This document shows positions 3,394-61,358 of a DNA stretch of 64,000 bases, in pieces. The notes under the pieces are model-generated. The model was not told the DNA's origin, did not search any database, and worked only from the letters and a program-made list of their open reading frames with translations. The stretch is from positions 4,706,506-4,770,505 of the forward strand of contig OX638316.1 in assembly GCA_951812525.1 (NCBI GenBank), in the 5' to 3' direction. A program made the position numbers and the translations under genes. Positions within the stretch are counted from its first letter, which is position 1. Each line of letters starts with the position of its first letter. The stretch comes from an uncultured Poribacteria bacterium. Its GTDB lineage: Bacteria; Poribacteria; WGA-4E; WGA-3G.

Positions 3394-3534
3394 AGGATCA
3401 TTCAATTTTACAACAATTTATATCCGGACGCCCGAACTTGTTCGGGACAATGCATGCAACCCGAATAAATTCGGGCGTCCATCAACAGAAATCCTTTACA
3501 TAGGTAAACTTATTTCCTAAAACTAAATGACCCT
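3394..3534. mobile_element. MITE-like element, copy 1 (degenerate left end)
   Basis: The right end AAAACTAAATGACCCT matches the ends of the 149-bp copies at 58686-58834 and 61210-61358, and the left end AGGATCATTCAATTTTA is a degenerate inverted match. The interior holds a long inverted repeat (GGACGCCCGAA at 3426-3436 with TTCGGGCGTCC at 3470-3480) and a nested hairpin CCCGAAC-TT-GTTCGGG. It fills most of the 314-bp gap between hflK and hsdR. It has no coding capacity. Confidence 0.6.
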
Positions 3535-9690: not shown

Positions 9691-9718
9691 CGGTGAAGTC
9701 CATACGGACTTCATACCG
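9691..9718. repeat. Hairpin GAAGTCC-ATAC-GGACTTC
   Basis: A perfect 7-bp stem with a 4-base loop is flanked by a further 4-bp pairing CGGT/ACCG with a two-base bulge. No T-run follows on either strand, so it does not look like an intrinsic terminator. It may be a diverged relative of the other hairpin repeats of the window. Confidence 0.5.
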
Positions 9719-11373: not shown

Positions 11374-12581
11374 TTGCTTTTCCTTTGACGGCGATTTGGG
11401 TGGGTCGGACCCGGATAACGTAACGTGTACCCCAACTTCTGAAGGTTATTGATCATTTTAGTAATCGCTGCCGCTTCCTGATGCTTACCTGTGCTCTTCA
11501 ACGAATTGACTAAGTCTTTCATATACCTGAGCATATCTGTGACAAAAGTATCAAGGTTTGACGGGCCTTGTGTTGTGCTTTCCGCACTGACTGTTTGTGG
11601 CAAGGTGTCTTCGATGCCGGTTTGAGCTTTTGGTACAAATGGCAAGAGACTTATCCCTTCAACCGGCATACCAGTCTCAGAAACTTCGGGTGCCACACTG
11701 GCGGGTTCAACCGATCTGATAATATCGTCTGATCCAACTGGATCCCATCCATCAACTTCCTCATCAGCTTCGGTGGCAACATCAAGTATGTCCCCGAGAT
11801 CACCTAAGATGTCAATTAGTGCTAAACCCGGGATGAAAGCTAAAGCGACACCGAGACCTCTTCTAACCAGTCTCTGCCTTGCTTTACTCTTAATATCTTC
11901 ACTGAAATCCTGATAGTTATCAAGGAGGTCATTGTATCTGTTAGCCAGACTCCGGTATTCTTCATCTAAACCTTTGGAGCGATCAAGTTCACGCCGAAGG
12001 GCAATCCCACATGCCTGTAGCGATAACGTAGATAGATAGAGAAGCTGGATGGCGTTGTTGTTACTCTGAGCCACCTGCTGTAGTTCGGTTTCGAGTTCTG
12101 TACTGCGCTGTTCTTCCGCTTTCAGTTTGCTATCGAGTTGTGTACTAAGCCGCTTTGCATCATTCCGTTCACTCTCGAGTTGTGCGCTGCGCTGTTCTTC
12201 CGCTTTCAGTTTGCTATCGAGGTCTGCGCTACGCTGTTTTTCCGCACTCAGTTTGCTATCAAGGTCTGCACTACGCTGTTTTTCCACAGTCAGTTGGGTA
12301 TCAAGTTCTGCGCTGTGCTGTTTTTCCGCACTCAATTGATTATCGAGGTCTGCGCTGCGCTGTTCTTCCGCTTTCAGTTTGCTATCGAGTTGTGTACTAA
12401 GCCGTTTTGCATCATTCCGTTCACCCTCAAGTTGTGCGATACTTTGTTTTGCCGCATCTCGTTCACCCTTAAGTTGCGTGTTCAGTCGGTCTGCCGCGTC
12501 CCGTTTCTTTTTTAGACCTACACCCCATATCAAGGAAGCAGCCAATCCTGCTATCAAAACAATAATGATGCCAATTTCCAT
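11370..12581 (-). CDS. Membrane-anchored coiled-coil protein with 14-residue repeats
   Basis: The 403-aa product has one N-terminal membrane helix (residues about 3-21, IGIIIVLIAGLAASLIWGVG) followed by a basic KKKRD, which places the rest in the cytoplasm. Residues about 36-165 are made of 14-residue units such as LDSKLKAEEQRSAD and LDNQLSAEKQHSAE, two heptads each, encoded by near-identical 42-bp DNA repeats. A second hydrophobic stretch LVRRGLGVALAFIPGLALIDIL follows at about 237-258, and the C-terminus is helical and basic. I recognise no enzyme domain. It is the first gene of the pair with the FRG-TPR protein. AGGAG lies 9 bases before the ATG. A sensor or membrane scaffold for the FRG partner is a guess. 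Confidence 0.75.
   Translation of the reverse strand: MEIGIIIVLIAGLAASLIWGVGLKKKRDAADRLNTQLKGERDAAKQSIAQLEGERNDAKRLSTQLDSKLKAEEQRSADLDNQLSAEKQHSAELDTQLTVEKQRSADLDSKLSAEKQRSADLDSKLKAEEQRSAQLESERNDAKRLSTQLDSKLKAEEQRSTELETELQQVAQSNNNAIQLLYLSTLSLQACGIALRRELDRSKGLDEEYRSLANRYNDLLDNYQDFSEDIKSKARQRLVRRGLGVALAFIPGLALIDILGDLGDILDVATEADEEVDGWDPVGSDDIIRSVEPASVAPEVSETGMPVEGISLLPFVPKAQTGIEDTLPQTVSAESTTQGPSNLDTFVTDMLRYMKDLVNSLKSTGKHQEAAAITKMINNLQKLGYTLRYPGPTHPNRRQRKSK
12120..12500 (-). repeat. 42-bp in-gene repeats encoding 14-residue coiled-coil units
   Basis: The DNA repeats the theme TTTGCTATCGAG...GCTGCGCTGTTCTTCCGC every 42 bases (read on the plus strand), several times in near-identical form (12182-12224, 12350-12390 and others). 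Because 42 is a multiple of 3, copy-number change would lengthen or shorten the coiled coil without breaking the frame. Confidence 0.8.
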
Positions 12582-15271: not shown

Positions 15272-15330
15272 GGTAGGATGACTGCCAGAGGAATGGCTGT
15301 CAGCTATCAGCAGTCTGAAAGAGTAAGAGT

Positions 15331-15353
15331 CGGGATCGGGAGATCCCGCCTAC
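15331..15353 (+). repeat. GATC-stem hairpin followed by CCTAC
   Basis: CGGGATC-GGGA-GATCCCG forms a perfect 7-bp stem with a GNRA-type loop, and GCCTAC overlaps its end. The same design recurs at 21163, 36161, 48819 and 50084 with paired base changes. Confidence 0.75.
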
Positions 15354-15930: not shown

Positions 15931-15994
15931 CTGGGAATAGACTAAATTTTCCCCATACGCGGCAAAATTTGTCTTTGCTTTACATTTCCATTCC

Positions 15995-16577
15995 TTGACA
16001 TTTCAATGAAGCAGAAAAGTATATCTGATAAATATACTAACGCCTCTATACACACAGACTCTTGAGTCCCGGAAGGACGTTATGTCTATAGAAAACTTCA
16101 GGGTATAAAAATACATTGACATTCCAATGAAACAGAAAAGTATATGTGATAAATATACTAACGCCTCTATACACACAGACTCTTGAGTCCCGGAAGGACG
16201 TTATGTCTATAGAAAACTTCAGGGTATAAAAATACATTGACATTCCAATGAAGCAGAAAAGCGTATCTGATAAATATACTAACGCCTCTATACAGACAAC
16301 CTCTTGAGTCCGGAAGGACATTATGTCTATAGAAAACTTCAGGGTATAAAAATACATTGACATTCCAATGAAGCAGAAAAGCATATCTGATAAATATACT
16401 AACACCTCTATACAGACAACCTCTTGAGTCCCGGAAGGACATTATGTCTATAGAAAACTTCAGGGTATAAAAATACATTGACATTCCAATGAAGCAGAAA
16501 AGCATATCTGATAAATTACTAACACCTCTATACACACAGACTCTTGAGTCCCGGAGGGACGTTATGTCTATAGAAAA
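15995..16577. repeat. Tandem array, about five copies of a 121-bp unit
   Basis: The phrase TTGACATTCCAATGAAGCAG recurs at 15995, 16116, 16237, 16357 and 16478, giving periods of 121, 121, 120 and 121 bp. Each unit contains an inverted repeat AGTATAT...ATATACT in the better copies, then a small hairpin GTCCCGGAAGGAC and the tail GTTATGTCTATAGAAAA. The period is not a multiple of 3, and open frames across it are translations of the repeat. The array ends at the tail of the fifth copy and is followed by a further hairpin plus tail at 16599-16620. It lies 0.45 kb upstream of larA. Confidence 0.9.
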
Positions 16578-21015: not shown

Positions 21016-21162
21016 TTCTTTTTTCCTCCATTTTAGTATGAATACGAAGATGTAAAATATTAGGTTGACCGACGTGCGATGAATCGCACTACTACGTACC
21101 TCTCCTCGTCAGATATAGAACTCCGAAATCAACGCCGAACCGGCGTGCAAGGGTTATAAGTC

Positions 21163-21184
21163 GGGATCAGGAGATCCCACCTAC
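21163..21184 (+). repeat. GATC-stem hairpin followed by ACCTAC
   Basis: GGGATC-AGGA-GATCCC gives a 6-bp perfect stem and is followed by ACCTAC. It lies just 3' of the ABC ATPase gene. Confidence 0.7.
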
Positions 21185-22430: not shown

Positions 22431-22457
22431 CCGGCAAGGTTAGAAACCTCGCCTACC
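22431..22457. repeat. GGTAGGC-type hairpin (copy 1)
   Basis: CCGGCAAGGTT-AGA-AACCTCGCC then TACC. The same stem-loop plus CCTACC/GGTAGG border occurs at 23547, 47675, 50019, 52363, 58756 and 61279 with changed stem bases. Confidence 0.7.
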
Positions 22458-23167: not shown

Positions 23168-23633
23168 GAATTGCCTTCCATACAAGAGTATAACGTCTGC
23201 TTAATTATTATAGGGTTTATAGGGGAAAAATATCAAGAGGAAATACATAGTTGTGAGTTGTGGGTTGTCAGCGTCATATTTATTTTTTTATTTTTTGACA
23301 AAAAAATAACACATTTTTGTATCATTCAGAGATTATAATTTTTATACCATTGGATTAGTGTTGAGAATAGAAATGTTGACGAAGCACCGTTGGACGTTCT
23401 ATGTAAAGTTGGACGTTCTATGTAAAGTAGAAAGGACGGATTTTTACATCCGTCCGCTCCGCTGGGTAAGCAGATTAATAACTATGGTGAATTATGAAAA
23501 TACATTCACATTTCAGCAAACCATGAACTGAAAAACGTAACACACCGGTAGGCGAAGTTTCCTAACTTCGCCGAGCAGAGAGTATAGGTAATTCTAAAAT
23601 CTACCATAAGTGAGGAATCAATACGGGTATAAA
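23168..23633. other. Non-coding divergent region with tandem 19-mer and hairpins
   Basis: The 466-bp gap between divergent genes carries a direct repeat of TTGGACGTTCTATGTAAAG (about 23389 and 23408), a hairpin GGACGGAT-TTTTAC-ATCCGTCC near 23435, and the GGTAGGC-type hairpin at 23547-23573. Long T/A runs lie around 23280-23310. Promoters for both flanking genes must be here, but I could not assign a good -35/-10 pair. Confidence 0.5.
23547..23573. repeat. GGTAGGC-type hairpin (copy 2)
   Basis: GGTAGGCGAAGTT-TCCT-AACTTCGCCG. The stem GGCGAAGTT/AACTTCGCC differs from GGCGAGGTT/AACCTCGCC of other copies by a compensated pair. Confidence 0.75.
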
Positions 23634-36127: not shown

Positions 36128-36160
36128 TTTTGTGGCTGTTAATTGTCTGACTGAAGTGTC

Positions 36161-36182
36161 GCGATCAGGAGATCGCTCCTAC
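36161..36182 (+). repeat. GATC-stem hairpin followed by TCCTAC
   Basis: GCGATC-AGGA-GATCGC then TCCTAC. Compared with GGGATC...GATCCC at 21163, the second base pair is exchanged on both strands. The repeat ends just before the ribosome-binding site of the next gene. Confidence 0.75.
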
Positions 36183-47674: not shown

Positions 47675-47701
47675 CCGGCGAGGTTAAAAACCTCGCCTAC
47701 C
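47675..47701. repeat. GGTAGGC-type hairpin (copy 3)
   Basis: CCGGCGAGGTT-AAA-AACCTCGCC then TACC, a perfect 9-bp stem. Confidence 0.75.
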
Positions 47702-48797: not shown

Positions 48798-48818
48798 ATT
48801 TTCAGCATAGATATTATC

Positions 48819-48840
48819 GCGATCGGGAGATCGCTCCTAC
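48819..48840 (+). repeat. GATC-stem hairpin followed by TCCTAC
   Basis: GCGATC-GGGA-GATCGC then TCCTAC, with a GNRA-type loop. Confidence 0.75.
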
Positions 48841-50018: not shown

Positions 50019-50045
50019 CCGGCGAGGTTAGAAACCGCGCCTACC
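50019..50045. repeat. GGTAGGC-type hairpin (copy 4)
   Basis: CCGGCGAGGTT-AGA-AACCGCGCC then TACC; one mismatch in the stem. It begins 2 bp after the dehydratase stop. Confidence 0.7.
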
Positions 50046-50083
50046 ACGATTAGGTAGGGAAATTTAAAACTAAGTAAGAGTCC

Positions 50084-50104
50084 GGATCGGGAGATCCCTC
50101 CTAC
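50084..50104 (+). repeat. GATC-stem hairpin followed by TCCTAC
   Basis: GGATC-GGGA-GATCC then CTCCTAC. It lies between the convergent dehydratase and thiN genes. Confidence 0.65.
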
Positions 50105-51769: not shown

Positions 51770-52339
51770 TCATTCTTTTTCAATCGTCTTGATTAGGAGA
51801 TCGCTCTTACTGAGTGTGTGAACAATCTTCACGGTGTCTTGATAATCGCCGACGATGCTCCAATTCGCGACGATCTGTGCGGTAATCTCTTGGGATTCAA
51901 TGTAATTGATAACATCGCGGATGTGTCGCTGAAAGGCTTCTGTTTCGAGATGTTCCTCGCCAAAGGGACAGAGGGTATCGACGCCGAGTACAACTGCGTT
52001 CCTGTCCTCACTGAACATAAGGGCGAATGGATAGAGTTGGCAATCGAGTGGACGGATCGGATAAATGGTACAGTGGCTTGTTTCTGGGTCAAAAAAGGGG
52101 CAGATGTAGAAATCTTCGTGCGGTTTTAGTTGGATCTGCGCGCTATTTGCGTCTGCTTGTGGATGGAACAGTGAAGGATTAGCACCGTGGGTGATTACTT
52201 TTTGTGTTTCCGTTTCTGTGAAGATAGGCGCGAGCGGACTGTCTGCTTCTAAGAACCTGCAGCAGACATCACACGAAAAGCATACCTCGGTGGGGATGAT
52301 TTGGTAGAGTGTAGTGTTTGAGGGGTTAGAGGTCTCCAT
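51770..52339 (-). CDS. YkgJ-family cysteine-cluster protein
   Basis: The 189-aa product has the metal-binding Cys cluster CFSCDVCCRFLE near the N-terminus and later Cys residues in YICPFFDPETSHCTIYPIRPLDCQLYPF, as in the YkgJ/UPF0153 family of putative zinc or iron-sulfur proteins. Its function is unknown. It is first in the operon with DUF2156 and thiN. The 3' end overlaps a degenerate GATC-hairpin repeat (CTTGATTAGGAGATCGCTCTTAC), so a repeat may have been recruited into the coding sequence. Confidence 0.85.
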   Translation of the reverse strand: METSNPSNTTLYQIIPTEVCFSCDVCCRFLEADSPLAPIFTETETQKVITHGANPSLFHPQADANSAQIQLKPHEDFYICPFFDPETSHCTIYPIRPLDCQLYPFALMFSEDRNAVVLGVDTLCPFGEEHLETEAFQRHIRDVINYIESQEITAQIVANWSIVGDYQDTVKIVHTLSKSDLLIKTIEKE

Positions 52340-52362: not shown

Positions 52363-52389
52363 CCGGCGAGGTTAGAAACCTCGCCTACC
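52363..52389. repeat. GGTAGGC-type hairpin (copy 5)
   Basis: CCGGCGAGGTT-AGA-AACCTCGCC then TACC, located between two minus-strand genes. Confidence 0.75.
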
Positions 52390-52423: not shown

Positions 52424-53569
52424 CTATTGTCCAACAATTTTTCCTATCTCATCAATTACGATATGTATCTCCTCTTCGGTTAACGCTGGATGGAGCGGGA
52501 GACTTACGACGCGTTCAAATGCTGCTTCAGCACACGGGAAATCGCCGATGCCATAGTCGTATTCCTTCTGATAAAACTCGAACAGGTGTAACGGGATATA
52601 GTGGACACTGCATTCAATGTTTGCCTCGCGCAATGCTCCGACAAATCCGTCGCGTTCACCGGGTGGGAGTTGGATAATGTAAAGATGATACGAATGCTCG
52701 CGGGGATTATCCGGGACTACTGGTGTGCTAATCTGCGGGAAATTCGCCAGTTCGGTTTGATAAATCTGGGCGAGATCTCGACGGCGTTCATGCTGCTTGT
52801 TGAGCTTCATGAGTTGGCACAATCCCATTGCCGCTTGAATATCGGTCATGTTGTATTTATAGCCTTCAGTGGCGATGTCATATCGCCAGATATCGCGTTG
52901 CGATTGCCGTGCCCAAGCGTCCTTGTCGATGCCGTGGAGTCGCATTGTACGGAGTGGTTTGGCGAATGCGTCATTATTGGTGGTAACCATCCCACCTTCC
53001 GCTGTTGTCATATTTTTATTCGCATAAAAACTGAAAGCGGATAGGTCGCCGATGCCGCCAATGTATTGCCCTTTGTATTCTGTTGGAATGGCGTGGGCTG
53101 CGTCGTCAATGAGCGCGAGGTCGTGATTTCGACAGATGTCCTGCAGAACATCCATGTTGCACGGAAGTCCAGCGAAATGGACGGGTAGTATCGCTTTCGT
53201 GCGCCGTGTTATCGCCTGCTCAATCTTGGTTATGTCGATGTTCAACGTATCGGGCTGGATGTCTACAAAAACAGGTTTTGCTCCGACGTAGCGGATCGCT
53301 TCAGCGGTGGCGGTGAAGGTGTAAGGTGTTGTGATGACTTCGTCGCCGCTACTGATACCTGCTACAACGAGGCTCAGATGCAAGGCTGCGGTGCAAGAAC
53401 TAACAGCAATCGCGTGCTTGACACCGAGGTACTCGGCGAAGGCGCGTTCAAACTCACGTACCTTGGTCCCTGTGCTGATCCACTTGGAAGCGAGAACTTG
53501 GCTGACGGCTTCGATTTCGGTGTCATCAATCCAAGGACGACTAAAAGGTATAAACGGTTTTTTTGCCAT
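52424..53569 (-). CDS. DegT/DnrJ/EryC1/StrS-family sugar aminotransferase
   Basis: The 381-aa product is a fold-type I PLP enzyme. Its start FIPFSRPWIDDTEIEAVSQVL, the AVSSCTAALHLSLVVAGI block, LIDDAAHAIPTEYKGQYIG and the PLP-Lys region SFYANKNMTTAEGGMVTT are all typical. It would aminate a keto-sugar nucleotide for surface polysaccharide, using glutamate. No other sugar-nucleotide gene is next to it, so the pathway is open. Length is normal. Confidence 0.92.
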   Translation of the reverse strand: MAKKPFIPFSRPWIDDTEIEAVSQVLASKWISTGTKVREFERAFAEYLGVKHAIAVSSCTAALHLSLVVAGISSGDEVITTPYTFTATAEAIRYVGAKPVFVDIQPDTLNIDITKIEQAITRRTKAILPVHFAGLPCNMDVLQDICRNHDLALIDDAAHAIPTEYKGQYIGGIGDLSAFSFYANKNMTTAEGGMVTTNNDAFAKPLRTMRLHGIDKDAWARQSQRDIWRYDIATEGYKYNMTDIQAAMGLCQLMKLNKQHERRRDLAQIYQTELANFPQISTPVVPDNPREHSYHLYIIQLPPGERDGFVGALREANIECSVHYIPLHLFEFYQKEYDYGIGDFPCAEAAFERVVSLPLHPALTEEEIHIVIDEIGKIVGQ

Positions 53570-58685: not shown

Positions 58686-58834
58686 AGGGTCATTTAGTTT
58701 ATATATTTATTTTATATTTGTTATCATATTTCACACTTTTTTACTCCTACAACCCGGTAGGCACGGTTTCCTAACCGTGCCGGAACCGAGAAAAAAATTC
58801 TGAACCACATAATTTCTTAAAACTAAATGACCCT
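58686..58834. mobile_element. MITE-like element, copy 2 (149 bp)
   Basis: AGGGTCATTTAGTTTATAT at the left end and TTAAAACTAAATGACCCT at the right end are inverted repeats. The core is the GGTAGGC-type hairpin (58756-58783). The length equals the copy at 61210-61358. The flanks AGATGGGGAC (left) and AGATGGAGAT (right, 58836) may be a decayed target duplication. The element ends 19 bp before the ATG of the next gene, so it may supply or disrupt that gene's promoter. Confidence 0.8.
58756..58783. repeat. GGTAGGC-type hairpin (copy 6, inside MITE)
   Basis: GGTAGGCACGGTT-TCCT-AACCGTGCCGG. The stem GGCACGGTT/AACCGTGCC differs from the GGCGAGGTT/AACCTCGCC type by paired changes. Confidence 0.8.
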
Positions 58835-61209: not shown

Positions 61210-61358
61210 AGGGGCATTTAGTTTATATATTTACTTTATATTTGTGAATCTTTTCCACCTTTTTTACCTATCCAACCCGGTAGGCACGGTTTCCTAACCG
61301 TGCCGGGCTGACAAAAGAGAACGTTAAACCCAATAATTTCTTAAAACTAAATGACCCT
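61210..61358. mobile_element. MITE-like element, copy 3 (149 bp)
   Basis: AGGGGCATTTAGTTTATAT at the left and TTAAAACTAAATGACCCT at the right are inverted ends, and the GGTAGGC-type hairpin (61279-61306) is in the middle. The copy closely resembles the one at 58686-58834 in length and sequence. It lies exactly between the two 31-bp direct repeats. Confidence 0.85.
61279..61306. repeat. GGTAGGC-type hairpin (copy 7, inside MITE)
   Basis: GGTAGGCACGGTT-TCCT-AACCGTGCCGGG, the same variant as in MITE copy 2. Confidence 0.8.

Follow-up and report, generated by a model that had tools for sequence, protein, structure and literature searches.

Seven short hairpins lie scattered between the genes of the window, a 64,000-nucleotide stretch of the genome of an uncultured Poribacteria bacterium, and their dispersal raises the question of what they are, what spreads them and whether the pairing of their stems is selected. 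The initial annotation had likened them to REP elements mobilised by RAYT transposases. We followed this comparison from the window to the whole genome and to related Poribacteria.

Hairpin families of the window

All seven hairpins were recovered where they had been placed (22431, 23547, 47675, 50019, 52363, 58756 and 61279), and a covariance-model search of the window, with a model itself built from those seven copies, returned exactly these at E <= 1e-4 (REP family 1, Table 1). On the tagged strand the consensus reads G-GTAG-GCNNGGTT-(TCCT or TCT/TTT)-AACCNNGC-CGG, the first loop base being nearly always T. The border first described as symmetric, GGTAGG/CCTACC, proved to be otherwise: GGTAG stands only 5' of the stem, while the opposite side is CCGG or CCGA. 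A palindromic pattern with tags on both sides (GGTAGGC...GCCTACC) gave 0 matches, so the tag is one-sided, and a 5'-only GTAG is the hallmark of GTAG-type REPs; this unpaired GTAG at one end of the stem-loop is found in 7 of 7 window copies and in most genome copies. The 9-bp stem holds if the last G of GTAG is taken to pair with the following C, and is perfect in five of the seven copies, with a G.T wobble in 22431 and a C/T mismatch in 50019. Five copies lie 3' of a stop codon; the other two, 22431 and 23547, are found either upstream of gene starts or between them. The copies at 47675, 50019 and 52363 are spaced exactly 2344 nt apart, which we treat as coincidence because a repeat search of the window found no longer shared repeat behind this spacing.

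A loose scan for GTAG hairpins found 12 in the window against a mean of 5.75 and a maximum of 9 in Markov-chain randomised sequence, modestly above chance, and we therefore based the analysis on the covariance model and the tagged pattern. Scanning the whole 5.06-Mb single-contig genome with the seven-copy model, as the initial annotation had proposed, gave 159 matches at E <= 1. Such abundance greatly exceeds chance: with the stem positions left free, the tagged pattern matches the genome 133 times and its reversed control 0 times. Outside the RAYT locus described below, 113 of 118 sampled copies (~96%) are intergenic, in sequence that is only 13.8% intergenic by a simple ORF caller. Length (20-40 bp), copy number and intergenic placement are those of GTAG-type REPs, as is the presence of stem subfamilies with complementary changes.

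A second hairpin, GTAGGAGNGATC-TCCN-GATCNCGAC in this or a closely similar form, occurs six times in the window; we call it REP family 2. Other repeats lie beside these two families. At 15948-16577 a ~121-bp unit that ends in GTCCCGGAAGGAC-GTTATGTCTATAGAAAA is repeated five times in tandem, and 22543, 48933 and 48983 again show a related hairpin together with ATGTCTATAG pieces. A 42-bp tandem repeat of at least eight overlapping units spans 12040-12501.

Table 1. Repeat features located in the window
Feature	Coordinates	Strand	Details
REP family 1	22433..22456	-	stem GCGAGGTT/AACCTTGC, one G.T; loop TCT
REP family 1	23548..23572	+	stem GCGAAGTT/AACTTCGC; loop TCCT
REP family 1	47677..47700	-	stem GCGAGGTT/AACCTCGC; loop TTT; no copy detected here in the 19 relatives compared
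REP family 1	50021..50044	-	stem GCGCGGTT/AACCTCGC, one mismatch; loop TCT
REP family 1	52365..52388	-	stem GCGAGGTT/AACCTCGC; loop TCT; common to G012 (loop TGC), not detected in the other 18 relatives
REP family 1	58757..58781	+	stem GCACGGTT/AACCGTGC; loop TCCT; within 149-bp inverted-repeat element
REP family 1	61280..61304	+	stem GCACGGTT/AACCGTGC; loop TCCT; within 149-bp inverted-repeat element
REP family 2	15329..15353	-	GTAGG-N-GGGATC-TCCC-GATCCC-GAC
REP family 2	21160..21184	-	
REP family 2	36158..36182	-	GTAGGAGCGATCTCCTGATCGCGAC
REP family 2	48816..48840	-	
REP family 2	50080..50104	-	one stem mismatch
REP family 2, degenerate copy	51786..51810	-	
MITE-like element, 149 bp	58686..58834	.	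terminal inverted repeats AGGGTCATTTAGTTT(T)A; carries one REP
MITE-like element, 149 bp	61210..61358	.	terminal inverted repeats AGGGTCATTTAGTTT(T)A; carries one REP

RAYT genes and the hairpins around them

The remark that no RAYT gene is present is correct for the window, and the search for a Y1/RAYT transposase that had been suggested located one elsewhere in the same genome (L004, C1:2370012-2370482), amid the same hairpins. The genome contains five Y1_Tnp genes, of which three resemble ordinary IS200 transposases by eye; for one of the three, L002, the NCBIfam scan fits IS200 better than RAYT. L004, which also matches Y1_Tnp, scores 128.4 bits with NF047646 (REP_Tyr_transpos), for which the curated NCBIfam cut-off is 80, and its sequence reads MPDHVH at the HUH motif and RYCYANPV around a downstream tyrosine. 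Y1 domain, HUH motif, catalytic Tyr and a score over the curated cut-off together identify it as a RAYT. Its closest PDB matches by sequence are weak (E about 1e-5), TnpAREP 4er8 among them.

More than 14 family 1 hairpins lie within ~2.2 kb of L004, where ~0.07 would be expected at the genome mean. They form runs at about 49-54 bp spacing, some copies having other sequences inserted in the loop, and the same repeats flank the RAYT gene as in GTAG-type REP systems; the locus is a REPtron in the sense of PMC3733652. In two stretches of this locus (L044 555-620 and 945-1010) the loop of the REPs contains a ~32-bp insert, GCGGCGTACTCGACCAAATGCGACCTGCAT, whose first part is also present in REPs of other genomes. 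At 9694-9713 of the window there is a palindrome, CCGGTGAAGTCCATACGGACTTCATACCGTTG, a near copy of which is nested in a REP insertion beside the RAYT gene (L044 about 790-890).

The main REP stem beside L004 is GCACGGTT. The most abundant free stem is GCGAGGTT, with 40 copies in a sample of 39 of 40 fetched 20-kb stretches plus the window, the stretches having been picked to include copies, and it is not the main type beside L004. Since the commonest free stem differs from the RAYT-side stem, the resident RAYT may not have spread most copies in this genome.

The relatives of L004 in the named genome collection all come from Candidatus Poribacteria metagenome-assembled genomes. Every clade A RAYT (at least 62% identity, 15 genomes including that of the window) has family 1 hairpins on its flanks, in most cases with a stem of its own (GTTCGG, GTGCGG, GCGCGG, GCGAGG and others). 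The flanking stem is GTTCGGTT in G004, G025, G029 and G016, GTGCGGTT in G023 and G031, GCGCGGTT in G024, and GCGAGGTT in G010 and G018, two genomes in which many tags are degenerate; more distant RAYTs, in another family, have the stems GCGCGGCA (G038) and GCGGGGCA (G041). The RAYT-flanking type of G004, GTTCGGTT, is also the dominant REP stem of that genome (54 of 93), and 86 of its 93 stems are fully complementary as against 39.8 with arms shuffled. A second RAYT of G004 adjoins TGC-loop copies, and this loop variant is dispersed as well. RAYT lineage and flanking REP type co-diverge in these relatives.

Besides the window's own genome, 35 genomes of the same genus were searched with the family 1 model and every one gave matches, while ten genomes of other classes gave none. 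About 50 REPs each were found in G006 and G019, with no close RAYT detected, possibly because of assembly gaps or loss. In G044, a RAYT reading frame with a stop codon (L099) is flanked by a further hairpin type, GTAGGAGAGGCATCCCTGCCTCGA, and the family 1 model finds no matches there.

Individual insertion sites differ between species. Both G000 and G012 have the REP that follows the gene at 52424, which was not detected in 18 other genomes; the one 3' of 47732 is present only in G000 among 20 genomes; G005 has a differing downstream context, so it is not a clean empty site. Between species the REP sites are thus variable, some relatives having the hairpin and others an empty site, and this presence or absence suggests mobility.

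RAYTs of a distinct clade B, in G007 and G036, are flanked by REP family 2. No clade B RAYT is among the RAYT hits of the window's genome, so the family 2 copies of the window look like orphans, their RAYT being found only in relatives. A second RAYT-like protein of the genome, L005 (88 bits), has around it six repeats that read CCCGAACAAGTTCGGG-CGTCC or nearly so, a repeat family that is also in the window. We do not claim L005 as the missing transposase of published CGTC REPs, since its repeats, when read on the CGTC strand, have the tag 3' of their stem; the known CGTC repeats presumably carry CGTC on the 5' side, unlike the repeats of L005.

Pairing, transcripts and carrier elements

The comparison with REP/RAYT systems is borne out by the RAYT in a dense cluster of the same hairpins, by RAYT/REP co-divergence and by polymorphic sites. 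In our judgement the hairpins are very probably GTAG-type REPs mobilised by a RAYT, with pairing maintained and a GCACGGTT subset captured by an inverted-repeat element. By analogy with other systems, an IS200-like HUH/tyrosine transposase (RAYT, TnpAREP) would recognise the single-stranded hairpin in its folded form together with the GTAG on its 5' side, and this genome encodes one close cognate RAYT. The enzyme would need an intact stem and particular loop bases, and would move or copy a ~26-nt unit into intergenic DNA. Recognition and cleavage of the single strand we infer from the published biochemistry of other TnpAREP; for group 3 the substrates are REPs in the form of perfect palindromes, with determinants in GTAG and in the loop (PMC8266576). 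Stems would drift as complementary pairs if only a paired stem were a substrate, each RAYT lineage amplifying its own variant, and the GCACGGTT-stem subset, once captured by the ~149-bp element, would now spread mainly as cargo.

The initial annotation had read the paired stem changes as pairing that is selected or copied together, and had set against this the possibility of a few subfamilies each derived from one perfect palindrome. Standard pairs fill 96.6% of pair cells in 132 sampled copies, and double-changed cells number 91, where shuffles give 29 and slid partners no more than 6, in an alignment fitted to the model, which favours structure. Within the window's genome, 76 of the 128 full copies have one of six perfect stem types, and covariation within one genome is largely a handful of stem subfamilies (about six perfect types plus decay). 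Here the subfamily reading is partly correct, and the GCACGG type did spread mainly as cargo; in its full form the reading holds that pairing is under no selection, compensation being mere copying. The comparison across RAYT lineages speaks against this: along the clade A RAYT tree one flanking stem type gave way to another at least five times, and pairing was kept each time, a count obtained by parsimony on a quick FastTree phylogeny with stem types assigned by hand. This repeated swap of both arms supports selected pairing, as do the share of paired cells and the finding that a stem mismatch impairs cleavage in vitro in group 3 systems (PMC8266576), and we hold an absence of selection to be unlikely. 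Complementary stem changes have been reported in other REPs as well (PMC2817692, PMC3733652).

The pairing might instead be selected on transcripts, the hairpins being terminators or mRNA-stabilising elements and their dispersal secondary. Such a role would suit the five of seven window copies that lie 3' of genes, the G.U pairs that occur among the stems, and the over-representation in convergent gaps (12.5 kb of such gaps hold 25 copies, while 31 kb of divergent gap hold 14), and transcribed roles have been suggested for other REPs (PMC3733652). However, an intrinsic terminator is a G+C-rich hairpin followed by a T run, and the commonest 3' flanks here (CGGTC, CGGTT and CGGAA) have none; an Rfam search found no family matching the hairpins and returned only a tRNA. 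The same genes stand without the hairpin in relatives, and the unpaired GTAG tag and the clustering at the RAYT gene are left unexplained, making selection at the RNA level improbable as the main account.

Carrier elements do exist. The REPs at 58757 and 61280 are passengers of a ~149-bp inverted-repeat element (Table 1), whose family has terminal repeats AGGGTCATTTAGTTTTA and, in several members, apparent flanking duplications of ~10-11 bp, read by eye. Outside the RAYT locus, 9 of 11 sampled GCACGGTT copies sit inside this element, so that the paired GGCACGGTT change is mostly one event copied with its carrier and not an independent spread of that change. Terminal inverted repeats flank the unit only in these two window copies and in most GCACGGTT copies, and not in family 1 as a whole. 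That the hairpins are merely internal parts of such larger elements (MITEs) and not themselves the mobile unit is true for 58757 and 61280 and refuted for most copies, hence very improbable in general: none of 68 sampled copies with other stems is inside the element, sites 47675 and 52363 differ from the empty sites of relatives by a hairpin without such repeats, and the RAYT locus carries bare hairpins. A 141-bp inverted-repeat relative of the element lies at 3394-3534 of the window, with ends AGGATCATT.../...AAATGACCCT, and carries instead an inverted pair of CCCGAACTTGTTCGGG-type palindromes (CCCGAAC), a type that also flanks L005.

A broader reading of the RAYT/REP system has two routes of spread, by its own RAYT and by capture as cargo of an unrelated DNA transposon's inverted-repeat element, together with orphan REPs that outlive or move between transposases, the cognate RAYT surviving only in related species; to this combination, orphans included, we give an even chance.

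Relation to known REP/RAYT systems

RAYT/REP is a known kind of mobile DNA, of which a search of an open-access library gave no earlier report in Poribacteria. The present data extend it to these uncultured sponge symbionts, across at least three families of one order. The 36 same-genus genomes, in many of which the RAYT and REP variants are matched, form a natural series for studying the co-evolution of stem and loop with the transposase, and the same series is suited to asking what becomes of REPs after transposase loss or capture by another element.

The closest parallel is the GTAG superfamily of REPs with RAYTs (Nunvar 2010, PMC2817692; Di Nocera 2013, PMC3733652), with the same unpaired 5' GTAG, 8-9 bp stem and 3-4 nt loop, the same more than 100 mostly intergenic copies, complementary stem subfamilies, and REPs beside the RAYT gene. 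The phyla listed there are Proteobacteria, Cyanobacteria, Chloroflexi and PVC, whereas ours is Poribacteria; the likeness drawn here is one of layout, 24 consensus sequences having been published for that superfamily, and in our genome an inverted-repeat element has some of the copies as its cargo. Perfect palindromes and short loops are shared with the group 3 TnpAREP/REP systems of Stenotrophomonas and Marinomonas (PMC8266576); in the present family a T almost always opens the loop and the stem stays intact. Family 2 (GTAGGAGCGATCTCCTGATCGCGAC) has the layout of the GTAG-1 REPs of Pseudomonas and Xanthomonas (e.g. GTAGGAGCGCACCtGGGCGCGAC, PMC2817692), namely GTAG, two unpaired bases, stem and GAC tail, but differs in stem and loop sequence, and its cognate clade B RAYT was not found in the window's genome. 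Finally, the GTAG-15 REPs of Anabaena variabilis likewise lie within another repeat, there a long palindrome (PMC3733652), whereas the carrier described here has terminal inverted repeats and apparent target duplications and is MITE-like.
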